NCBI GenBank assembly: GCA_000310025.1 | Contig: FN649736.1 | Span: forward strand, 5,175,377-5,239,376 | Length of the DNA: 64,000 nucleotides | Origin: Ectocarpus siliculosus | Taxonomy: Eukaryota > Sar > Phaeophyceae > Ectocarpales > Ectocarpaceae | Reading direction: 5' to 3' | In this document: positions 3,701-58,900 of the stretch, piece by piece | Layout of the letters: each line of letters opens with the position of its first letter | Position numbering within the stretch: position 1 is the stretch's first letter | Notes under the pieces: generated by a model | Database searches by the model: none | What the model was told of the DNA's origin: nothing | The model's input: only the letters and a program-made list of their open reading frames with translations | Translations under genes and position numbers: made by a program

Positions 3701-6476
3701 CTAGAAGTAGAAAGCAATGCTTGCCAGACAGCCGTCAAGCATCTTGATATCATAGCACATGGAATAGGCGAAGGTTGTCCAGCATAGTTCTTACACCTAA
3801 GGAACACTCGAGGGATTCAAACCCGATTATTTTCGAGAAACGCCAGATCTTCTTCTTATTCCCACCACAACTTTGAAGCCGACGAGACAAGTCCACGTAT
3901 AATACTTCCACGTCAGAAGACCATCCTCGCTCTTACTGCTGTAGCGTAAAGCCGCAACCAACAAAATGCACCTCCCTCATCTACACGACCCGAAAACAAA
4001 CATCTACAGTATCAACAACAGCGCGCCTCGCTATATAGGTAGCGCAAGCTCTGCACACCACCACAAAAAAAACACAGAAGCGCAATGCCTCATCGCGACA
4101 CACCTGCGGTGCCGCCGACTGCATTACGCCGCTTCCCCTCGACACCAGCATCTGCTGCGCGCTGGCCTCCAGCAATGCCACCGCCGTTGGGTCGTCCGGC
4201 TTCACGTCGAAGTTGGAGGGCCGTAACGCCCTCCGCTTGCGCCGCCGCTCGATCCGGTCCCGGTCGTTAAGCGCCTCGTTGCGAGGGTTCTCGAACCGCC
4301 CCCCGCCCCCGCCGCCGCCGATCCCTCCTCCTCCGCCGCGCCCTCCGCGCCCGTAGCCACCGCCTCGGTCACGGTCACCGCCGTAGCCCCCGCTACGCCC
4401 GTAGCCGCCTCCGCCGCCCCCTCTGGGAGGGCTGCGGCTGCCGCCCCTACGCCTGTTGTACCCAAAGGGAGAGGAACAAAATCGGGTGGGATCGGATCCG
4501 TACGTGGGCGTGGGATGAAAGGTGTACGAACGTACACACGGGCGTGAGGTCTGCGCACGGCTTTCAGCAAAGGGGTGAGATTTCGAGTCGTTCCTAGACA
4601 CGAATGGGCATCCGAGATGGGCACCGACAAAGCATAGGATGAGACGCGTGCGCAAGGCAGACGGTGGGTAAGCTCCCCTGCCTCGTACTCGCACCGACTC
4701 TGACGCGACCGTCGTGCACGCGTGCTGCTGTAGACCAGGAGACAGCTGCATCACCAAACATACACAGGTGTCGCAATCCAGCTCAATGCGATCAAACTGC
4801 ACCAACAGAAGCACGCCAGCCACCACTGGACACGAACTTCCCGCGCAACAGACATGGATGGCCTCAGGCTCGCTTCGTGCTGCGCATGCTCAACGAGCTC
4901 CGAACGACAAAAACTGTCCGCTTTGCAACTGCCGCAACCTCCAAACTATCCCAAAAAATCAGAACACCGACACCTCCCGTTGCGTGAAGCTCCAGGCATG
5001 GCATGATGGTATCGCAACGAACAACAGTGGAAGAAAGGCCCATCTCTTGACACAACTTCAAAGCGACAGCTACTGCTGTAGACCCTCACCAATGCGCCGT
5101 GAGCACCCAAACATAAACACAGCCCCTCCTTGTGAACACGATCCCTCCTTGTTAACACGGTCCCTCCTTGTATACACGGTCCCTCCTTGTAAACACGGCC
5201 CCTCCTTGTGAACACGGTCCCTACTAGTAAACACGGTCCCTCCTAGTAAACACGGTCCCTCCTAGTAAACACGGTCCCTCCTTGTAAACACGGTCCCTCC
5301 TTGTGAACACGGTCCCTCCTTGAAAACACGGTCCCGCCTTTCATACACGGTCCCTCTTACTGCCCCATGTCTTGCAGTACACCCATCCAAACTCAGAATT
5401 TGTTTCGATCACGCAAATCGGGTGGCACTGCAGGCAACGACCGCTCACACCAATCGATGACTTGGTGCCCAAGACACATGCTAAATGTACCCACCTGCTG
5501 TCTCGGTGGTCTCGTCGAGGGGAAGGCGACCTTCTCCGCCGACTGTCCCTCCCGTCCCTCTCGCGCTGCTCTGGGGGAGGGGGCTGCATGGGCACCGGCG
5601 GCGGGGCCTGCTGCGGCGGCACTGCCGCATACATCGGCTGCGGCGGCTGCTGTGGCAGCAGCGGGGGGTCGGCGAACTGACCCTGTGCCGGGGCCATGGG
5701 GTAGCCGTTCCCGTTGCCTGCGGTAACGCCGCGGCGGTGGAAAAGCGAGGAAAAGAGTCGGACATAGATATCGTAGTAACACACAACGAGGCAGCGGAAA
5801 ACGGTAGAGGGGATGAGCTCGCCATCTTGTTGCATGTTCAAGCAGGGACGATGGCGAGGAGTCGTGATGCAAAAGCAAGGCCGTCGGTGGACATGTCGAC
5901 GAATGGCGTTGTCTCCGCTGCGCGATGGCAGCGTTTTCGTATGCACGATTTTTGAAACGTTGTCCCGCCCGCGCTCTGTTCTAAAATTGTGCATCTACTC
6001 TTTGAAAAACTCGCCCCACACTAGAAGCAAGACAAGAGACAACCAGCCACAATGCGAACCTAACCGCAACACGCACAAGACAAGCCAAGCTCTTGCTAGA
6101 CACAGCAGTAGTCAACACCGCCCCACTACGAACGCTGACGAAGGATAAGGATCCATAAGACGGGATCACAGCACAGCAGTCCCGAAAGGCGGCGGCAGGA
6201 TACAAGGGGACGCCTGGAGGCAACGCTCGCAACAGCCGTGAACAAAAACGTTGTCCGTGAAGATCAAAGCAAGTTTCACGACGGCCGCAGAATGCAAGTC
6301 CGTGTTTCCCGATGCCGTGAAAGCACCCGTGTTTAGCATTAGCAGGTCTCTCGCTCACCGTTGAGCCCACCAGGAGGCAGCGGAGGTGCTTGGGCCACCA
6401 CCGGCTGCTCCCCGCCCTCCTTCGTCATCCATGCCGGCAGGGTCATGCCCCTGCCTCGGCCTCCGCCATGCGCCAT
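1..6476 (-). CDS. U2AF2: U2AF large subunit (U2AF65-like) splicing factor, 3' part missing
   Basis: U2AF65 binds the polypyrimidine tract at 3' splice sites in the nucleus and recruits U2 snRNP. Eight exons are readable, all in phase: 6476-6359, 5717-5495, 4452-4104, 3110-2925, 2461-2328, 1592-1475, 1001-808 and 339-189, giving 491 codons. The start is ATG at 6476 ([11 protein letters not shown]), followed by the motif LPAWMTK. Residues 40-230 are Pro-rich, then RS/RGG-rich (RRRRSPSPRRD, SRSPPRGGGGGG). RRM1 begins near residue 247 (RNP2 RRLYIGG; RNP1-like AFAFLEL). RRM2 begins near residue 358 (NKVFIGGLPYNL; RNP1 KGYGFCEY), preceded by the U2AF-type linker with VPDSDNK. Exon 8 carries a Gln tract and ends at a CAG|GTGTGG donor at 189/188, so the C-terminal UHM/RRM3 lies beyond the left edge. 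The order RS-RRM1-RRM2 and the RRM2 wording match U2AF65 rather than other SR proteins. Confidence 0.93.
286..323 (-). repeat. CAG/CTG trinucleotide tract coding for polyglutamine
   Basis: About 12 CTG triplets on the plus strand encode a Gln run just after RRM2 in exon 8 of the U2AF65-like gene. Such tracts commonly vary in length between strains. Confidence 0.9.
736..792. repeat. TC/GA microsatellite next to a splice donor
   Basis: An imperfect (TC)n run on the plus strand. On the coding strand of the U2AF65-like gene it is a GA-rich stretch starting about 15 nt downstream of the exon 7 donor (807/806). Confidence 0.85.
2207..2336 (-). repeat. Tandem triplication spanning the exon 5 splice donor of U2AF65
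   Basis: Three copies of a roughly 45-55 bp unit contain the plus-strand words GGAG-C/T-AGACA and AACTCACGCCG, with TATGTAAGCAAAT in two of them. The copy at 2320-2331 contains the real exon 5 donor (GGC|GTGAGT on the minus strand). The two intronic copies, at about 2235-2244 and 2275-2284, repeat the same donor sequence. Confidence 0.85.
5116..5358. repeat. 19-bp minisatellite, about 12-13 copies, in an intron
   Basis: Units read AACACGGTCCCTCCTTGTA with scattered substitutions (CCTAGTA in several central copies). The array lies in the intron between exons 2 and 3 of the U2AF65-like gene. Confidence 0.95.
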
Positions 6477-25196: not shown

Positions 25197-25982
25197 TTGG
25201 TCGTCACAGGCAAGTCGCAAAAAGAAGACGAAGCTAAAAAAGCGGAACCTCTGGACCTGAGCAGGAACGCTCGGACACCTGCCGCTTGGGTCGAACGGGC
25301 ATAGTACCTTAGATGGATAGACCTGCGGTAATAATCAGTTCGTTAAGCAACGACGGGTTTCGAGAACGAGGGGTTGCATTCTCGTCGTATTGCGCCCGCT
25401 CTCCACGAGGTCAACACGCTGTGCTTTTTCGGCACGGCATTGCATTTGCGAATCAGCGAGTCTGTGGGCAACGTGGCTGTTGCTTACATCCTTCGTCGCC
25501 AATGCCAACTGCTTGTTTCGAAAACAGCAGTCATTGGTCGTGCCCTCGGAGAGCGCAACATGAAAGTTTCATCGGGACGGGGAAATGTTTCGTAGTCCAT
25601 TGCATTCCTGTCCAGAAAGAGAACCGCAACGACGCCGAGAATGCGCACAAAAAAGCAGGCCGAGGAAGTGGTGCCCAGTATTCTACGCAAGAGACTTCCT
25701 CTTCCAAAGGTGTCGGGCATACGCGTACGGCCATCAGGGCGTCCGCTGATGCATATGACCGGCGAACACCATGAGCCCACACAACACCCAGCACAGAAGG
25801 CCGGTGCCTAAAAGTGGCGGTGCTTGAGGGCTAGACCGGCTACGTTGCATGCCCTAGAGGTAGCAGTTGGGCAATTTATTGGATGATTCATGTTACAACC
25901 GTGACCACAAGCGGAGTTTGTGTGACGTACCGGATGAATTGGTCTATTTTTGTCTCTCTGTGGCGGCAGTGGAGTACATTTA
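25197..25982. other. Intergenic stretch before the putative element
   Basis: It follows the stop codon of the unknown plus-strand gene and probably includes its 3' UTR. Open frames at 25313-25774 (+) and 25484-25780 (-) overlap each other, lack splice context and look non-coding. Confidence 0.5.
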
Positions 25983-26012
25983 CAGTGCTGCACGGCTGAA
26001 AAAAAAAAAAAG
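25982..26012. repeat. Left terminal inverted repeat
   Basis: ACAGTGCTGCACGGCTG plus an A tract, matching 30320-30346 in reverse complement. Confidence 0.7.
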
Positions 26013-27089
26013 ATGGCGGCGGAACAAAGAATATCGGCTTATACAGAAGAGCAGCGCGACCGGCGTACATCCACCCAACGCTAAAGGTTTACAGCAGTAG
26101 ACTATTCCAATAGCTATCTAGGGAACCAAGATTTGCCGAATTCCGTCCACTGTAGGCTGAAAACTTGTCGGCGCAACCCGCAGCCCGTGCCCGAAAAAAA
26201 CGTGCCGATCGTATCTACGCGGCGCAACCACGCTGCTGTGCACCCGCCAAAGAGACCAAGCACGAGAACGCGCCCACCACAGCATCAATCGCTACAAAAA
26301 TTTGATGGAAGATGGACTGAGCGCCAGAGAATAGATTGCATAAAAATTCAACTTAGTTAGTGCAGATGATCGAGAGGTAGGCACGAATGAAGTTGAAAAC
26401 TTGCGTTCGCATACAGGCACCGTGCTTATGCCCTGCCACAGTGCCGGCAACACCGAGCATTCATAATATTAGCTGCTGATCTTGTGGTTGTATAGCACTT
26501 GGAATTGTGCTGCAATACGAACTACAGGTGGAGTACTCTTCAATGGCGTCAGCTAGGTTTGAACTGAAATTGCTGTTGGTGGTGCCCCCCTGTTATTGCA
26601 CCGCACACGCTTGCTTGTGCCTGTTGGAGTCGGGACCTGAGACCTAGCAGCACAACTCTCCTGATTCCTGATGAAAAAAATGCAAGAAGGGTCGAGCGAC
26701 TACTGTAACACGGCACCTACGGTAACAGTGAGTTTGGCTACTGATAACGTTGTGCTACGTGGTGTCGCATGCAGGCACGGTCGGCATATATATGAACACA
26801 TTGATGTACTTGTCTCGATGTACATGAGTACGCCCTGAGCATTGGGTGTGGCGAGAACGCCGGAAATACTTACACACGAGCACCGCACACAAGATCGGGA
26901 CCCCCCGGGTTGCCCAAAACCTATCAACATCATGCCCGAAGGATACAAAAACTAACTTATTTACAGTCAGTACAATACCGGCCCAACGCACACAGCACCC
27001 CAATAATAGGTTTCCGGCAGTTTGCCGGAAAAACGCGAAGAACAAAATACCATGCCAATAAACAACGGACACCCGGCTTGGCCGAAGAA

Positions 27090-27209
27090 CCCCCCCCCCC
27101 CCCCCCCCCNNNNNNNNNNNNNNNNNNNNNNNNNNNNNNNNNNNNNNNNNNNNNNNNNNNNNNNNNNNNNNNNNNNNNNNNNNNNNNNNNNNNNNNNNNN
27201 NNNNNNNNN
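27090..27209. other. Assembly gap preceded by poly-C
   Basis: Twenty C bases (27090-27109) run into exactly 100 N (27110-27209), the usual size for a gap of unknown length. The C run is probably a sequencing artefact at a contig end. Confidence 0.9.
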
Positions 27210-27436
27210 CTCGTGGATGGATGCATCCAACGGAAGTGAAGCACGGGCGGACCTGTTCAACCACCAACAAGGACGCGCAAAATATGTCATTGAAACATGG
27301 AGTTAGAATAAATCAGACCACACGATCTTTCGGTACGACGTGGAGATCTGACGTGCAATAATGCCGGGCACGACATCCCCAACCCCAATCCCAAGGAACG
27401 ATATATGATGTACCTACCTGAAGAAGTAGCCAGATC

Positions 27437-29963
27437 TCAGTTCCAGGCGTCGGTTACGAGATCCACAACCCCATCATCTGTGTCTCCATAACTCCAGTTG
27501 GAGTCGACGCTCTTCTCGCTCACCCCGTCAGGTTCCCCATCGCTGGAGCCAGATTCGCTCGAATCCAACTTGATCAAATCGTCGAGTGCTCCGACCGAAC
27601 CGTCGCCGTTATCGTCCGACTCGGGGTCCTCCAACTCTTCATCGGCGTAGCGATGCTTCTCGCGTGTCCCGGGGGTGTTCTTCAGGGCAGGGTCACTCTC
27701 CACGTCGGCTCGAACAATTCTACCAGCTGCCCGCACGACGGACATCCTTGCGTCTGCGTCCTCCATGTCCTTCTCGACTTCCTTCAGAATCGACTCGAGA
27801 GACCTACCCTTATCCGCTAGCTGGTTGGATGGTGGCTGTGCGGGTGCTTTACGTCGAGCACGCAGCATAAACTCAACGAGATGCTTGTCCCCAAGGGTGT
27901 TTGGGAAGAGGAAGAGTTCCCGCTCGCGTGCATCTCCTTGCGCTCCGTCGGCTCGGACCAATCGTGATTTGCTGTCGGGGTCTGCGTCCGTCCCGGTAAA
28001 CAAGTCCAGGACGATGCTTCGTGCGTACTTCCCCGTTATCTCCTCCATGCCAACCTTCGCTCGTTCAGCAGTTAGCCAACCGGCGACGTCCTGCCAGCAA
28101 AGGATATCACCTCGACCGAGGACGTCATCCACCATCCTCCGCACCGTGCTCAAAGGCTCTAGAAGCGTCGGCGCCTCGTCCCCCGATCCACATAGCTTGT
28201 TCGCTGCTTGCTCTGGCGGTTTGTCGTCTATCTTCATGCCGTTCAAGCGGCTCTGGTGGCAACGGCCGCACCACCAGTCACCATCACTCACCATCGCATT
28301 ACCCTCCGCGACATGATCTCCTGCAGCATCCATGGGATACCACCTTACGCGGCTCTTGTCCGATTTCCGGTACTTGCATTTACTGCATTGGCGAAGCTCT
28401 GCCTTCCTTTCTTTCTCGGCGAAATAAGCTAGGAAGCAGTCTGGGCGTTGGCAGAGGCAGTCCTTGCTGGGACTAAAGTCTCGCACCATAGCTAGAGGCA
28501 GGGTTTTCTCTCCTTGTCTCAACGCGGCTACGAAGGTTACAGCTCGCCCTAGCCGGTCCGCGCGGAGGTGCGTGAAACCTTCGTCGTCCGGCAATCTGTG
28601 GCATGCCGAACATAGTATCTCGTCGGCCGAGTGGACTACACTCCCGGGGCATGTGCTACACTCGGTGCGAGGGTAGTGTGTAACCCAACCGCATTCCTGA
28701 CGGCCGCACGCCTTTTTTCGCTTCTTGCCTGTTGGTTGTCCTACAGGTAGCACCGCCGGGGCAGAAAGTCTCCTACCCGCATTCCGCTTGCCTGGCAGAT
28801 GACCGGCTTGTCTTGGGTTCCCGCCGTGGCTCCTACGCCGAGTATCAACGGGGTTATTCCCCCCGGCCTCTGATTGTCGCCGTTCATCTTCGGCAATCGC
28901 GCGATCTCTACGAGCCGTGGCCTCCCTCCTGGCCTCGCTCTGCTGCTTGTAGTAATCCTCCTCCTCGAGCTTGCTCTCGAGGTTGGGTAGGCACCCACCC
29001 GTGACACTAGCAGAGGGCCTCCTCTTCCTCCTCCGTTTCCTGCCCGACCGGGTCTTTCCTCCCGTCCGACGGACACGTGCACGGGAATCTCCCGCGTCGC
29101 GCTTTGTCGCGGCGATGGCGGTGCGCGCCTCGTTGGTTAGGTAACCCTCTCCCCTGCTCCCGCTCCGTCTCCGTTCACTTGTGGCGTCTCCTTCTGTGTC
29201 GTCGACCACTGGCTGACGCGGGGTTAGCGCGCCTTCCGTGAGCTGGCGAAGGGTTAGTATCGGCTGTATACCCCCGCTTCCGGGTGTAGAAGGGCTCCCA
29301 TACTGGTTCCGAGGCAACGCCGGTGGCGTACCCGGTAGAGCTGTGGGGCTCTTCACCCCACAAGCCGGTTGGCCCACCCTACGTGGACGGGAATTCATCT
29401 GGCAGCAGCTCGACCTATGCCGGCCGTTTTTCCATGCATTCAAAACCTGACCAGAGTTACGACAACAACATGTCACTTTTGCACGTACAGCTATAAGCCA
29501 GGCGCACGCCTATTCGTGGGGTGGGATTTTCGGTGCCTCTTGACAGCCATGCATAAGGTCTGATCCTCTTTACGGGCGCGCGTATGCACCTGAGAACGCA
29601 ACGGACAGAAACCTGTTCAAATACGTAGTTATTCTCTAGAGTGTCTGCAGCTAAGCGCCCCGAGTCATGTTCGGCTCGTATATTGGCAAAGCACCGAGCG
29701 TAATAATTGAACTCGAAGAAATCGTACTTGCCCTCTTGAAGCCCAATCTGTCTGCAATTTGTAGTGATAGGCTGACCCTGAGCTGGCATTATTGTGTTGA
29801 GCATTTCCATCGTATCTTGGGGTGGGAATGGTGTATCCAAAGATGTACCTACAAGAGGGCTGCGGACCCACGGCATAGACTCTTCTGAAATTTGAATTTT
29901 GAACACACCATGCTTATCCCCTGCCACACTAAATCGCCTCAAACCTTTTGCATTATGTGACAA
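27437..29963 (-). CDS. Cys-rich unknown protein inside the putative element
   Basis: Not recognised. The minus-strand frame 29476-27437 is open for 679 codons without an intron, unlike all neighbours. A second open frame, 29963-29457, can be spliced in front of it (donor GAACAG|GTTTCT at 29613/29612, acceptor GGTCAG|GTTTTG at 29447/29446), phase 0 on both sides, giving about 786 residues. This join is provisional. The middle has several Cys/His clusters suggesting zinc binding: CGRQECG, ECSTCPG, CSACH, CLCQRPDC, CSKCKYRK and WWCGRCHQ. The N-terminal part is basic (RSGRKRRRKRR) and the C-terminus acidic (ELEDPESDDNGDG). Placement between inverted repeats suggests an element-encoded DNA-binding or transposition protein, but no catalytic DDE or rolling-circle motif was identified. 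Confidence 0.6.
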
Positions 29964-30319
29964 TACAACCTAGGTATAAGGCGGTAGCATAGTTAGGCTG
30001 CAATACAACCACCTCGCGCAGAGGTCGGGTCGCATGTGAAGCTCGCTCCCTGATTTTGGAGCTGCTGCATGGTGGTGCACTCTAGCTAAAGTCCAACTTT
30101 TTCACCCTACCGTTCACAACTGTACGTATAAAACATACCCTGGTGTACCCTGACATCTTATTTACATACATCTCTTGAAATCTGGACAGTTTATGTTCTC
30201 GTTCGCCCTCTAGAGCCGATGCTAGGTGTGGAGGTCTGGTGCCGAGCGAGCCGCCTGATCAGAGGGGTTTCCACAAGGGGCTGCGTTCCCGTTGGAAGCA
30301 TTATTCGGCGTACTTACTT

Positions 30320-30346
30320 CTTTTTTTTTCAGCCGTGCAGCACTGT
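30320..30346. repeat. Right terminal inverted repeat
   Basis: A T tract followed by CAGCCGTGCAGCACTGT, the reverse complement of the left repeat. It ends about 280 bp upstream of the acetyl-CoA synthetase start codon. Confidence 0.7.
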
Positions 30347-30626
30347 TTATTAGTCTCCACCACGACCATCACCATCCAGTAGATAGTGGGCGAGTGGGTC
30401 ACCGGCGTTTAGATACGACAAGTATAGTGTAGATGAAAGTGTGGGTGCTGGGCTGTTGCATATATCCGTTCCAAGATACTGCTGCATCCAAACAACAGCA
30501 CCGCGGCATGTTGCATGTTCTGGTGCACCGCGGCATGTGTTCCATGGTACCCATATTTCGGTCCGCGGCGCCCCCATGTGTCCGCAAGGACGATGGTTGA
30601 GACAGGCTGTGCACTTCAATCGATCA

Positions 30627-33600
30627 ATGCGCTTCGCTCGTCTGCTGGTGATCGGACTTCCACTCAGCGCTGGGTTCTCTGTACGACCTCTCGTCTCCAA
30701 GAGGCCGCCGTACCACCCCGCCCCTCTCAGCATGAGCGAACAGCAGCAGGATGCCCCCAAAACGTATCCTCCCCCGAATGCGGTTCCGGATGGCATGAAG
30801 ACCTACGAGGTAACATACCAAAATTGCAACAGCGGTTGGATTGTTGTGTACAGCAGCTCTTGGTCACGTGTCGTTACATGTCTTCGATGCACCTTCAGCA
30901 AGCGTGCCGACTGCTGTTGCAGTGTTCGTCGTTGAGTGGGTCTGATCTTCAGAATTTTGCCCGAAACATGCTTGACATGCAGCAAGTGGCAAATTGACCC
31001 GCACTCTCCGAACGGCTGTGCTATACTGGCTGCTACAATGTACCTGCTGACTACAAGCTATAGTGTGCCATTCCGCGAAGAAACGACATGGAATTGCGCG
31101 TGTTGCTTCCACCCAGTCACTGCACGCCGTCCTCTTTTGCCATGTCGGGGTACGCGAATCTCACGAGCAGGCGATGCACAAGCAGAGTCTCGAGGAGCCG
31201 GACACTTTCTGGGGCGATGCCGCCCGGTCCACGTTGAAGTGGTTCCGCGACTTCGATCGCGTGTCCCAGGGCGGCTTCGACACCGGAGACGTGGCTTGGT
31301 TCACCGGCGGACAGCTGAACGCTTGCTACAATTGCATCGACCAGCACCTGCCGCAGCGGGCCAAGCAGGTGGGCATATGTTGGCAGAGAGAGTAAGTATA
31401 ATGCTGTCGAGCTTGTTGTTCTGGGTTTGTCCGGGCGTGTGTGGTGTCCTTGTTTGCCGACTCAACGGCCGGAGCCGGAGGGGGGCCTGCACTCGAGAAT
31501 ATCCAACGGCACTTGCTCCCTCAGCCCGTTCAGCGCATGGTAGGCGAACCATGTTCGCAGCGACAATATTCCTATGCACCGTTCCGGAGTATTTGTGGGC
31601 CAGAACTCGGTCGAGTGGATGTTTTGTCTCTATAGCAGCACCCGTAGGTGACATGATGTAAGATATCGCACTCCTTGGACCGATTCTCAAAGCTCGATTT
31701 CCCCACAGCAGCAAGAGTGGCAGCGCCGAACACGGCGGCGTTGAATCCGTCCCGTCGAGAGCTTTCCGAAGACCTATCGTTTCGTTTTATGCATCCTCTT
31801 CGTCGTGGACCAATCGAGGGTTAGCTTTGAAAATGGATTCAAGAGGGTGTGGTATCTTACATCATCGTGTCACCCACGGCGTATGGGTGATGCTTGGTAA
31901 CATCGGTCATCGCTCCTCTCTTGAAGCAAAGAGGTTACGGCACCAACAGCAGCATGTACTGCTGTATGATAGCGCTCCGTATTGAACCGGCACCGCTTTT
32001 CTCCCCCCGTATGAACCGGCACTGCGTGACTCCCCCCGTAGAACCAGCACTGCTTGACTCCCCGCCGTTTCATGTTTTCATTCGATACGACGATATGACG
32101 TGATGCTTGCTTGGGGGCCATCAAGGTTGCCATCCTGCACGAAGGCGACGAGCCCGGAGTGGTGACCAAGATCACCTACGAGGACCTGCTGGGGCAGGTC
32201 TGCCGAATGGCCAACGCCATGAAGGAGCTGGGAGTGAAGAAGGGAGACTTCGTGACGCTCTACATGCCCATGGTGCCCGAGGCAGCCGTCGCCATGCTTG
32301 CCTGCGCGCGCCTGGGCGCCCCTCACAGCGTGGTGTTCGCTGGTTTCAGCGCTGAGGCCCTGCGAGACCGCATCGTGGTGAGTGAGGAAGGCCGTCAAGA
32401 TGGATGTGCTTTGGGTTGGGGGGCGCTTCTGGCGAAGAAGGAATAGGCCAGCCTTGCCGTGGCTGCCTGCGTGTCAACGGTTCCCTTGGCTCTTATCCTT
32501 GGCGTTCCGGCTGTTGTTAAGGTCTGTCTGCCGCTGAGAAGGGGGGAGTTATCTCCTGTAGTTTTCGGGCATGCGGTTCGGTAGGCGAAACTTGGTCGGA
32601 TCAGAAAATTCGTCGGACTACCGAGCACCGCCGTCGGGATTGTGCACTACGCCGATTTTGGCATCAAGTTGCGAAGGCTCTACAGCAGTATGGCGGACTG
32701 ACATTAGCTTTGGTGTGTGCGGCTCTCCTGCTTGACTCCTGCTGACTATAGTACGAAGTTACCATCAACCACCCTCTACAATCGCGTACGCCCTTGGCTT
32801 CGCGGCTGCTATTCCACATCAGTGGCCGAGATTCCTGGTCATTGTTGCCGCCGTCGCACATGGTTGATTCAGCACTTTTTCTGCCGGCCCTCGTTTTTTT
32901 ATTTGTTTAGTATTTTGCGCTGGATCGCCCAAAGACGCTCTGTGACACGAGTCTATTAGTGGCCCCAGGCCCTTGCTATTTATACCTCTTGTGCTTGAAG
33001 TTGGCGAGTGCTCGTCCAACACCGACCGTGTTGCTCCCAGACAACGTGTGTTTGTGGTAGAAGTGGCACGCAGCGTTGGACAGCGTCGTATTTCTGTACA
33101 ACTCTCGGATGCAACTTGTCCACACTGCAACTGCAACAGACCGCCACCCTACAACCTTAGTAAGAGGAGGGATGGGTCTATCTGACGATAGCCGAGGGAG
33201 CTTCGTTCTTTGTTGATTTCGCACCCAGTCGTTGTAACTCTGCGGCATCTGCGTGAGCATTGGCGAAGATCCGTCAAGTCACTTGTGCGATCTCTGGCAT
33301 TTTTTTCCGTCGCCATCGCCGTCTGGGCTTTGTTGACGACCTTAAGAGCACCAACAGAATTAACGATATGCCGCAAACGCGTACGATAGTAGTTGAAACC
33401 GCCAAGGTCATTTTTTAGAAAATTGCATACCTCGTACTGCACAGCAGTTACAGAAAGACTAGCCGAGGTATATGTTCATGTACCATGTCGCCTGTTTTCG
33501 TGCTTCGGGACATATTTCGCTGGCGGAAGCGAGTCTCGTCTCACGGTTCCTTCTCAGGGGCACAGTTCCTTCTCAGTGGCACGCAGGGGAGGCGTCGGTA

Positions 33601-46100: not shown

Positions 46101-46645
46101 TGTGGGCAAAGAAACATGTCTCGTACGCCGCTGCTTCCCTTCGTTGTCGTTTTTATCGTTTGTTCGTGTTTGATTCACGGAACACACCGCGGCGTGAACA
46201 ACGCCCCCCCCCCCCCCCCCCCCCCCCCCCNNNNNNNNNNNNNNNNNNNNNNNNNNNNNNNNNNNNNNNNNNNNNNNNNNNNNNNNNNNNNNNNNNNNNN
46301 NNNNNNNNNNNNNNNNNNNNNNNNNNNNNNNNNNNNNNNNNNNNNNNNNNNNNNNNNNNNNNNNNNNNNNNNNNNNNGTGTCATGGCGGAAGACGGAGAA
46401 GCGGAGATCGAGGCCAGCCGGCAGCAGCACCGCCGAAATCCCCGCTCCCACCGGAGCTTCGGGGCCGGCGCCGGCACGCGGAGCCACAACGGCAGCGGCA
46501 GCAGCGGCAGCAGCGTCCCCCGCACCGTGGGGGCCGGCGTGACCACCAAGTGCTTCTTCGACTCCACACTCTCGGCGGACGGCTACAACGACTACAACGC
46601 CGGCGACGACGACGACGACGACGACGACAGCAGCGACTACCGCGG

Positions 46646-50028: not shown

Positions 50029-53000
50029 TTACCACGCTACGGCACACCCGTCAGCCCTTCCATCCGACCCGCACCAAAGGACCTGGGTGCCACCACTCAT
50101 TTTGCGCTGAATAATCTAAGCATCGTTCGGTCGTTTCACGAGGGACGGGCAGAAACATTAAAAACACACAACGAGATGGGAGAGGCTTAGTGTTGGTGTA
50201 GTCAATGCTCACGTATAACAGCTGTGGAGATAAAGCACCCCTCTCACTTCTCCTTACTGTACCAGCCTGGCCAAGAGTCTTACCCCCCGACATCTTGTAT
50301 CATACCTCAAATATTTTGTTGCACCGGATGGTCATGAATATCGTATTTAGTCATTTTTCATTTGACACAAAGGCGTAAAAGAGTTCTGTCGTACTGTTGA
50401 AAGACATATGACGCAGCACGCAAGTTTACGACAAGATCAACGGGTACACATCTTCAACCACAACATATGCGGGGCAATCAATTTCCCATGCATGGCATTT
50501 ATTTGTCTTTATACGCAAAAAAACATCGAACCTTGCCAAGCGTCCACCTCCGCCATGCTACTGCTGTAAGACCTCCACTACGGCGAAAGTTAGACTACCG
50601 GTAAACCCGTCGCGAAGCAAGACCCACATTTGTACCACGCACAAAACTTAGCTCCCAAGGATGTGGGGTATTTCCTACCTGAGCTCGCCCCATCTCGCAT
50701 CGCGCGTGCCCCCGCACCACCTTGATGTCGTGACCCATACGCTGGAGCTCCGACACTACCGCCTCATAGCCCTCTCCGCCCTTGTCAGCCCCCTCTGGGG
50801 TATCACGGCCGGCGGCGGCAGCGGCGGCGTCGGGGTACCAAGGCTCAAGGGCGACGGCCCCGTTGGCCATGCCGTCGCGAATGCAGAAGCGGGGTGCGTC
50901 GATGGCGGCCTGGGGGTCCATCCCCCGCAGGAGAAGGTTGGAGAGAAGCTGCACGTGGCCCTGGGGTTGCATGAATGCGCCCTGTGCGGCAGAGGGTATG
51001 AGAGACGCAAGGACTTTAAGCAGTATTGATTATTAGCGCGATTGCAGAAGCGAAAAGAAGGGCTGAAGAGCAGGAGCAGGTTCGAGAGAAGCTGCACGTG
51101 GCCGTGGGGTTGCATGAACCCCCCCCCCTGCGCCGCAGAGGGTATGGACGATGCACAGACAGCGTACGTAGGATGACAGTGAATTCAGAAGCGAAAGGAA
51201 TCGTTTTGAAAAGCACGTCTTTCATGCACACGACGGCGTAGTTCTTTACACATCAATGCTACGCTCGGTTGGGCGGGTGTAAACATCAAATGGACTGCGT
51301 GCGGAAAGCTTCCACGAATATATCTTCATCGAGGAACTTGGGGTAATACCAGGCACACAGTAGTGAGCCCTGGTGACACCGAGAGTTGCGTGCGGGGTCC
51401 GAACCAAGGCCGACGACCACAACAGGCTTGCGCGGTACGACATCGCAATCACCGGAAATCGCCACGTTTGAAGTGTAGATCACAGATCCCATGTAGCATT
51501 GCTCTTCTTCTGGATTTTTCTCACAATCTATTATTTTCCCCCAGTTCGGTCTACGACCACGGCGGTTACATGTCGTTCTGTGAGGGTTAGGACGGGCTTG
51601 AGCGTAAGACAGCAGCAACAACAACAACATCAACAACAACAACAAAAACAACAACAGCAGCAGCAGCAGCAGCAATAACAGCAGCAACATCAACAACAAC
51701 AACAGCAACAACAACAAACAACGATTATATGTAACACCATGACCTTCAGCGCGAACGCACCATGTTGGTCATCGTTGCGAAAAGCTCTCCCGTGGCCTCT
51801 GACGTCACCATGCAAGGGATGATTGTGTGGTACGGCCGCTTTCCCTGATTCACGATGTACGGTACATCCACGGATCGATTATCTTCTCAGTTGTTGTCTG
51901 ATCGGTAGTTGATTGGCAGAGCGGAGGGGAGACACATGCAAGACACCACCCAAAGATAGATGTAAATTATCGTGTAGATCGCGTACAGCTATTGTCGCAA
52001 GCAACATTCTCGGCTCTTTTGACAAGCTGTGACATGCGTGGGCACGCTCAGAGCACAAGCGGCACACGCCAAAAAAATCTGCGCGACGTGGTGGTTTTGA
52101 AGGTGGCCTGGCAAGGCATAGAAAAAAACAAACGTCCGTCTCTCCAACTCGCTGTCTATCTTTCCTCTCTTCTCTCTTTGCTCTCTTTCAGCGTCTTTGG
52201 CCTTCCGCATCTCTCTGCCCCCTGCACATCTCGAGCTACACCCCAATAACTATCTCCTGATGCTTACTTCGTTAGCCGTTCTCTAACCAACTCCTCACTT
52301 ACCGGTGCCAGAACATTCGGGTGCTCCGGGTCGAGCACAAAGTTAGAACCCCTGCTCTGAAGGGAAAACCCACACCCATCCGGGACAATACCGGAGCCGA
52401 ACCCCATGTAGTTGGAGTTCACAAAAGACACGGCGTTTCCCCGATCGTCGACGACCTGGAAGCTCACTGTGCACGAGCTTTTGGTCGGACTACCCTTCTT
52501 CACGTCGACTGACGCCCTGGAGGGATGATAAGTCGTTGGCGATGCATGCGGCGGCGTCAGAAGCCAGGCCATCATGTGAAAAAAAAATGGTAACCGCAGA
52601 GCACGCACACGTACGAGTATACAGCTGGAGGTAGAACGGCTTGTTCCGGTGAGAAAACTCTCGTGTTTGGCGCTAGGCACGCGGTATGCATATGTGGAAA
52701 CGATGCCTTGAATGGTACCGAGGGTTGTCCGGGTGCTTGTGTGCTTTATTTCACAGTCGATCAAGGTCTTGGGCCTATTAGTCATACGTAGTAATAAACA
52801 AATCACGGGGAACCGCACTCGTGACAAGAGTTTCGTCGCCCAATCCATTTCAATCGACATTGCAACAGCCGCATGTACAAAAACCTTGCAAGCGGGAGCA
52901 ACATCGTGATAGCGGGGAACTTGCTGGTTGCTGCTGTTGTGTCTAGCCGCCTACCTCGTAGGGTCGAAGAGGCGAGCACGCTCCGCGGCGTAAGCCTGCC

Positions 53001-55946: not shown

Positions 55947-58900
55947 ATGGACACCTTGTTGGGGATCGCAGGGGAAGGGTGAGCCACGTCCGAATTGTCC
56001 TTGAGACTGGGAACCAGAGCGCTTGTTTTGCAGCAAGCCTTGCTGAGCGTTGCAAAGTCGGTAACTGATGCGTGCAGACAGAGAGCCCGTTGGATCAACA
56101 CGCCCGGTTCGCGTGGCAACGAAGCTGCTTGTTAGGGGCGACCATCCGCACCTATCCGTATCCACAGCTGGATTCTCGTGGTGCGTTGCGTCGTTATCTC
56201 GCTCTCTAACGGTCCACGATCTGTGACAGTTTTAGACCAACCGATATGGCCCTCGTTCAAAGGATTCTAAAATAGGGGAGGAAGGAGGTACATGTAGAGG
56301 GAGACGGCAATATTGCACTTCTCATCTCTTCGTTGCACTCCAAGCACCTGCAAACGGCGTTGCAGGGCGGAGAGGGCTATACTGTAAGCAGCACTGCTGC
56401 GGTGGACAGAGATGAACTCGTGCACATCGGCATCTCCTATGCATGCGCTATACATGAAATCGCTGCCGCAGCAGCAGCAGCAGTAGTAGTAGCACTCGGA
56501 GGAGACAGAGGTAATGTATGCCAGTGGTCTTGTCTCATTGGGCCACGGCTAAATAAGCCACAGCGAAACGCCCAACACAAGCACACACAGCAGTCAGTTG
56601 GCAGATACGAGGGTTCTCGCTTCGCCCTCAGAGGGACACAGGACGAGACGAGACTACCCCAGTTACAACAGCGTACGAGTTCACTCAGACAACTGACACC
56701 CATAAAAGCCCGAAGCAGGTCAATCCCTCCTTTCATCAACACCTTTACACAACGACCACTTTGGTAGGAAAGGGTAAAAGGTTCGGGAGGCGAGATTTCG
56801 GTGAGGCACCCGAAACATCCTCGAACGAAAACAAGGGATCATGTCAGCATGGTTCCAGGTTGTCTGGGCGTCGGCAGTGTGAGCTTTTCGTCCTAAACGT
56901 TGGGCAACACGGCTGTGGGGGCGGTGGTGTAGTCGGCCTGCGCTCAACAAATGTACCAATACTAGACGATGTCGCTGCAGTCTGGTCTGGAATGAAGCAG
57001 GGCAGCAATGAAGGAAAACCGCGTTCGCAACAATTTTTGGCAACGGTGCATGTACTCAGGAGTGTGGCATATGGAATACACGATCGAGCACCCCTTCACA
57101 ACCGGTCCACATAACCTAGACTCCCGAGCGGCAGTTTTACTCGCGCCCTACCCTCGAATTGCCTCTGGGACAATGTTAATCCCGTCAGTTCCTACTGTTT
57201 CCTGTCCACATCTTAGCTGAATGATGCCTCTATACTTGGTGTACCGTTCCCCCGTGCCACCCTCCCTCACCCACCAACTGCTGCGGTTACGCCAACACAT
57301 TAGCTGCCGGTGTGAACCACGTGTACGGCAACTATTCTCCTATGCATAACTCGGGCAAGCTTCCAACAGACTTTTTTCTCCAGGCCTAACGAAGTTTCCC
57401 TTTGTAACGTTCCTCCCAGGTTTGTGGTACTGGCGGCAGACGCACAAGTGGCGCGGTCTATCCTCCTATACAAGAACAACATGGACAAGATCGCGCACCT
57501 CGCGGACAACAAGGCCCTCGCCTGCGCCGGTCCCCAGTCCGACTGCGTCTCCTTCACCGAGTACATCTCGAAGAACATGGCTCTGTACGAGCTGAACAAC
57601 GACGTCAAGCTCACCACCAAAGCGGCGGCTACCTTCATTCGGGGCGAGGTGTGAAGCTGTATTGTACGCTGCGTTTCTTGTCGGCGTAGATGGGTTATTT
57701 GCACATTACATGTCCACGGTACCCGGCTGAATCTGACGTCTCATAACGATGGCGGTATGGACAGTTGTTGGAACGGTAATTATGATTCAGCTGTCTGGCT
57801 GGATGCACATTGGTGCATTTTATATGATGCATTGCTGTATCGGAGAGCATCGATGATACTCGTCTCTCTGCGTCATGACGCTTCTGGTCGAAGGATGTTC
57901 CTCCCAAAACCCCTCTTTTATGCATGAGAATTTTCAACCTCTGCCATTTTCTATACTAACGAGCTTGCCCGGCATCCACGCGCCGAGGAGTTAATCGAGA
58001 TTACCGTGTTCACCATGGCGTGCTTTTGAGCAGCAGGCGGCTTGCCTAACGTACTCTCTCTCTCTGATTTCCCTGCGTTTGTGTGCCGTATGATACGCAG
58101 CTGGCAAAGGCACTCCGGAAGGGTCCCTTTCAGACTCAGCTCTTGATGGGAGGCGTTGACAAGCGGGAAGCGGGCAAGGACGAGGCGTCGTTGTTCTGGC
58201 TGGACTACCTCGGGACCCTGCAGAAGGTGACTCGCAAGTTGCCTCTCCCCACAGTCACCCTACTGTAGAGGCACACGCCTTATCGTAGCAGCTAGACAAC
58301 GGAGACCTTTCGCTGCCTGCACGTGTAGCAACCGTGTGAAATTGGTTTGTGTCGGCGGCAGTTGTTGCTGACGCTTTTACTTTGTTGGCCCATCGGAAGC
58401 TACGAGCTATCTGTCCCTCAGTCGCCAACAAGCCCTCAACTCAAGCACGACGGAGACGTGAAAATGTTCGTGTGCGTGAGCTGTCGACGAAACCCACCGT
58501 CCCTCCCACCCCCAACTGTTAGTGGACGGGTAGTCAGGACGAATCGGTGCATGAGGGCGGAGGTTTGTATGGCGTCTTGTTTGTACCGCAACAGCTGCCC
58601 TTCATTTTGCGAGGCGTTTTCTCGGTACACCGCCAGAGACGAGAAAAGGCACATGCCAAAGATACATGCCAGGACCGTGTATCTAACGCTGTACCATCAG
58701 TTTATTTTGCGCGACCGGTCTACACTACAGTTCTCACCTTTTGTCGCTGGCTGTTGAGCGCCATGTTAGCGTCGAAACCTATGCCCTTCCATCCCACCCC
58801 CCCATGTTTGTTATTACTGTTGTTGTCCGACCTGTGTCGTGGAGCTCATCGCTGAGCACCCATTCCGCCGTGACGCGTGAGCACCATTCCTTCAAAGCTC

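Follow-up and report, generated by a model that had tools for sequence, protein, structure and literature searches.

We analysed a stretch of 64,000 nucleotides from the Ectocarpus siliculosus genome (contig FN649736.1, positions 5,175,377 to 5,239,376; hereafter the window, in whose numbering all coordinates are given). Within it, positions 25983-30345 are probably an inserted class II DNA transposon with terminal inverted repeats (TIRs) and a TTTA target duplication. It would be non-autonomous, or else its assembly is incomplete. Inside the element is a single-exon gene on the minus strand (27437-29398) for a protein of 653 amino acids (aa). Judged from its sequence, its most likely role is that of a nuclear accessory protein that binds nucleic acid and travels with the element, not that of the catalytic enzyme. 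The initial annotation of this region had proposed a transposon of 4.4 kb. The best reading is still a DNA transposon with TIRs and a TTTA duplication, but both the length (4.36 kb for 25983-30345, gap included) and the gene content are nominal, since an assembly gap of 100 N follows a run of 20 C at 27110-27209.

Terminal inverted repeats and target site

TTTA lies outside both ends, at 25979-25982 on the left and at 30346-30349 on the right. Between the two copies, each end consists of CAGTGCTGCACGGCTG followed by an A tract, and the pair faces outward in inverted orientation. The left TIR (CAGTGCTGCACGGCTG plus A9, 25983-26007, plus strand) and the right TIR (30321-30345, minus strand) are identical over 25 bp, or over 26 bp when the A/T of the TTTA copies is counted (25982-26007 versus 30321-30346). 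Read from 25979 to 30349, the layout is TTTA, CAGTGCTGCACGGCTG, and A13 on the left, and C, T9, CAGCCGTGCAGCACTG, and TTTA on the right. The left A tract extends to 26011, and the left TIR contains a dyad, GTGC-T-GCAC. Thus, the TIR pair and the TTTA copies of the initial annotation were both found exactly where it had placed them, and the perfect identity reaches well beyond the 17-bp core that it had described. Two features of TIR DNA transposons were present, perfect inverted repeats of 25-26 bp and, in one instance, a target duplication. The boundaries can be cut in two ways, either as CAGTG ends with a 4-bp TTTA duplication or as ACAGTG ends with just TT in common, and the former is preferable. 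Neither cut allows a 3-bp duplication, and TA is found on the left side only. The first bases of the element are then CAGTG and the last bases CACTG.

In 60 second-order Markov simulations, the longest inverted repeats measured 13-18 bp, compared with the 25-26 bp observed. The only longer exact inverted repeats in the window were four pairs of GCT microsatellites (29, 29, 28, and 27 bp), and when simple repeats were filtered, the runner-up within 20 kb was 17 bp long. The 17-bp core by itself is not decisive, and most of the case for a transposon comes from the in-register A tracts together with the 4-bp flank match. By arithmetic, a 4-bp flank match is expected by chance about once in 250 for one boundary, and about once in 125 for the two possible boundaries. 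The end 16-mer matched the window twice at three mismatches or fewer; both matches were exact, and both were these two ends. Since at least two matches with mismatches were obtained in 29 of 100 shuffles, the number of matches proves nothing, but their exactness does. From this anatomy, a DD(E/D) transposase would bind the 16-bp end and excise the element, which would then be joined to a staggered 4-bp cut at TTTA. A related element may provide such an enzyme in trans, or it may be encoded in the gap.

Other repeats were seen in the element and elsewhere in the window. A 23-bp direct repeat (26418-26440 and 29906-29928, 91% identical) is located about 420-460 bp from each element end, and GCTGCAATAC begins 91 bp past both copies. 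When this repeat was tested as a sign of a nested element, the extended direct alignment score was reached in 7 of 200 shuffles and the inverted one in 24 of 200. Two 9-mers were present three times in the two arms, versus at most one in 50 shuffles; they do not count as evidence of subterminal repeats, since for each 9-mer the TIRs account for two of the three occurrences. A second 17-bp perfect inverted repeat (50766-50782 and 56364-56380, 5.6 kb apart) surrounds gamma-glutamyltranspeptidase fragments. Its flanks do not match, and thus it stands at chance level.

The 653-aa protein and the element interior

The open reading frame (ORF) of the gene is uninterrupted, with its first ATG at 29398. 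Its codon score was 0.087 in frame, whereas the other minus-strand frames scored -0.122 and -0.130, and thus it is probably a real gene. This agrees with the minus-strand gene of the initial annotation. Its coding style had also been described as unlike that of its neighbours, which turned out not to be the case: the score is inside the range of four other long ORFs of the window (0.047-0.151, three of the four having trained the score), and ORFs of 659 and 708 aa are also present. Within the span of the gene, weaker windows were flagged in other frames, four on the plus strand near 27482-27572 and seven on the minus strand.

The protein has 17 cysteines, including those at positions 231, 236, 247, 250, 263, 266, 314, 316, 321, 338, 341, 377, and 380. 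Those of residues 231-380 include pairs spaced C-x4-C-x10-C-x2-C and C-x4-C-x16-C-x2-C, and the product looks zinc-finger-like. Its N-terminal part is basic (net +20 over residues 101-228) and its C-terminal tail is acidic (net -21 over residues 521-653). Two single-sequence AlphaFold models had mean pLDDT values of 41.0 and 39.1 and gave no usable fold; residues 1-228 were modelled, poorly, without structure save one helix. A helix-turn-helix-plus-wing appearance of residues 398-520 was set aside as unreliable.

The family, structure, and genome libraries that we searched contain little or no brown-algal sequence, and therefore the negative results are weak. With the whole ORF, the best Pfam match was far below the cut-off (GAIN_A, 0.022), as were those of pieces of the protein (MtrC/MtrF-like, 0.026; Slowpoke_C, 0.11; others weaker). 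There was no match to the protein in NCBIfam, and PHROG gave one weak match (0.43) to a family of unknown function and no convincing relative. Searches of PDB sequences also gave no convincing relative, either with the ORF (best E 0.36 among 21 chains up to E 10) or with residues 398-520 (best E 0.23, four chains). In searches that reach close relatives only, three stretches of viral contigs matched one of six peptide patterns and 15 stretches were found in prokaryote genomes, and none was confirmed in either. No relative was found in phages by tblastn with the protein.

The rest of the interior gave no further sign of coding. In the left interior (26008-27109), no stop-free 150-nt window had a codon score above 0.1, and Pfam found nothing above the cut-off in six frames with X at stops. 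The right interior (29399-30320) probably represents non-coding sequence at the 5' side of the 653-aa gene. It contains a 170-aa ORF on the minus strand (29457-29969) whose codon score, -0.065, is not coding-like, and nothing exceeded the Pfam cut-off there (three minus-strand frames) or in 27210-27440 (one frame). Nowhere in the element beyond the gene did a stop-free 150-nt window score above 0.1, a measure that short exons would escape. Thus, in agreement with the initial annotation, no known transposase signature was found above the Pfam cut-off in the gene and the interior frames scanned. A missing signature would be expected if the element were non-autonomous or if the gap at 27110-27209 contained its transposase. 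A second gap (46231-46377, 147 N) follows a run of 27 C; both gaps come after C runs, suggesting that the assembly breaks at C tracts, where it may lose sequence.

The GC content of the window is mostly 0.50-0.60 per kb. The window contains interrupted genes, including acetyl-CoA synthetase and gamma-glutamyltranspeptidase fragments, together with glutamine-rich ORFs, and its GC content, interrupted genes, and glutamine-rich ORFs would fit a brown alga near Ectocarpus. A tandem array is present at 5114-5356 (12.8 copies of a 19-bp unit). A match to the N-terminus of acetyl-CoA synthetase (ACAS_N, 31051-31392) starts about 0.8 kb to the right of the element, and thus the insertion is probably located upstream of an acetyl-CoA synthetase gene or close to its start.

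Alternative explanations

Several observations weigh against a transposon at 25983-30345. Repetitiveness, a hallmark of transposons, is unproven, with one copy only within the window: the end sequence was absent elsewhere in the 64 kb at three mismatches or fewer, and blastn at E 1 matched the element to no other part of the window. Only the occupied site is in evidence, and the TTTA duplication was observed once, a 4-bp coincidence that can arise by chance. No transposase is visible, the curated Pfam cut-offs not having been reached by any family in the gene or the interior frames scanned, and the accessory-protein role is based on composition, both structure models having failed. Outside the window, the end sequence (21 and 18 bases) had no match in viral contigs and one match in prokaryote genomes, a single end in a Chloroflexi metagenome-assembled genome, against about seven such matches expected by chance (by arithmetic); the left end and interior had no match in phages. 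In the literature, six papers contain the opening 12 bases of the end sequence, and by their titles none of the six is about transposons; TTTA as a target duplication was not met as a phrase in any of the five papers listed by a search for it.

One alternative is an inverted repeat formed by chance around an ordinary host gene. Non-simple inverted repeats measuring 17 bp or more, with arms no more than 20 kb apart, arose in 5 of the 60 simulations, the A tracts are simple sequence, and the codon use of the gene resembles that of other ORFs in the window. Chance would, however, also have to bring the A tracts into register and match the 4-bp flanks, and we regard this explanation as improbable. 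An undescribed transposon superfamily in which the 653-aa protein serves as the recombinase appears slightly less probable still. The gene of this protein is the sole one visible between the ends, and the protein had no relative in any library searched, but absence from libraries so poor in brown-algal sequence means little. Moreover, about a third of the protein (residues 1-228) is basic and, in the poor model, unstructured save one helix, its last 133 residues are acidic, there is no usable fold, and a standard transposase could sit in the gap. The initial annotation had raised the possibility of an undescribed superfamily. This is possible but unsupported, since AT-rich duplications of 4 bp occur in superfamilies already described, and so do CAGTG ends; in its full form, with CAGTGCTGCACGGCTG ends, a 4-bp TTTA target, and mobilisation by the Cys-rich protein as a new-fold or highly diverged recombinase, it is very improbable.

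The element might instead belong to a described superfamily. If it were of Tc1/mariner type, possibly related to Ectocarpus TcMar, the true duplication would be TA, the right TA would have mutated, and TTTA would be a coincidence. The C-x4-C-x16-C-x2-C of the protein equals the EsV-1-7 spacing save for the last residue, which is H in the EsV-1-7 motif and C here, a likeness of spacing only. Pfam includes an EsV-1-7 model, but the scans gave neither a DDE nor an EsV-1-7 family in the gene and the interior frames scanned, the gap being unsequenced. Passages of a 2025 survey of transposable elements in Ectocarpus describe 17 Tc1/mariner families, including an autonomous family of 4.4 kb with a transposase that has an N-terminal EsV-1-7 domain (PMC12477816). 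Furthermore, when its TA is included, the left end reads TACAGTGCTG and agrees with a Tc1 inverted-repeat primer given in a passage of PMC3680223 over the 10 bases with which that primer begins; this likeness was noticed post hoc and ends after eight bases of the element proper. However, the rule for Tc1/mariner stated in the relevant part of PMC10741241 is a TA target duplication, and here the right flank by the end is TT, with TA on the left only. The inverted ends are otherwise identical, suggesting a young insertion, and we consider a Tc1/mariner origin unlikely. Membership of the Sola superfamily, with the transposase deleted or in the gap, is a narrower form of our preferred reading, a class II element with a TTTA duplication, and seems a modest possibility. 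According to the same part of PMC10741241, members of Sola duplicate 4 bp, their TIRs measure 11-1124 bp, and most are 2-9 kb long; TTTA has that duplication length. Passages of PMC3627910 describe AT-rich 4-bp duplications for Sola2 of slime moulds, and the Ectocarpus survey lists one Sola-1 and one Sola-2 family (PMC12477816, in part). On the other hand, TTTA does not conform to AWWT, which those passages state for some families of Sola2 (PMC3627910), and no Sola transposase was found by Pfam in the gene and the interior frames scanned, again with the gap unsequenced.

Comparison with described transposons

KDZ elements duplicate 8 bp, and the 8-bp flanks of the element differ (TACATTTA versus TTTATTAG). 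This also led us to reject hAT, for which a passage of PMC3706591 gives a duplication of about 8 bp. PIF/Harbinger elements, with 3-bp TNA or ANT duplications in the survey passages (PMC12477816), were rejected because the 3-bp flanks differ under either cut (TTA versus TTT with CAGTG ends, TTT versus TTA with ACAGTG ends). The differing 3-bp flanks also speak against EnSpm/CACTA, whose ends start with CACTA or CACTG and whose duplication is 3 bp in the part of PMC10741241 concerned, whereas the element starts with CAGTG and ends with CACTG. piggyBac was rejected since TTTA is on both sides and not TTAA, its target duplication according to the abstract of PMC7351741. No superfamily membership is claimed, because no catalytic domain was found.

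Compared with the Tc1/mariner elements in the cited passages, the element likewise has a left end (TA)CAGTGCTG, and it differs in its right flank TT and in that no DDE domain was seen. With Sola it shares, by description in the cited parts, a 4-bp AT-rich duplication, a short TIR, and the size range, whereas Sola has a DDD transposase, none of which was seen here, and some Sola2 families have AWWT and not TTTA. In the Ectocarpus survey, the passages cited list 51 unclassified DNA families beside 15 Harbinger, 5 EnSpm, and 8 KDZ families, and they describe giant DNA families, generally longer than 10 kb, that carry only non-transposase genes (PMC12477816). If real, the element would be one more unclassified DNA transposon with a Cys-rich passenger or accessory gene in the brown-algal mobilome, and its importance would grow only with an autonomous relative whose transposase proved to be of a new kind. 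Like the unclassified and passenger-gene families of Ectocarpus as described in these passages, it is a DNA element of the TIR type whose gene lacks homology to transposases; those passenger-gene families are giant, whereas the element, likened to them by description, is nominally 4.4 kb.

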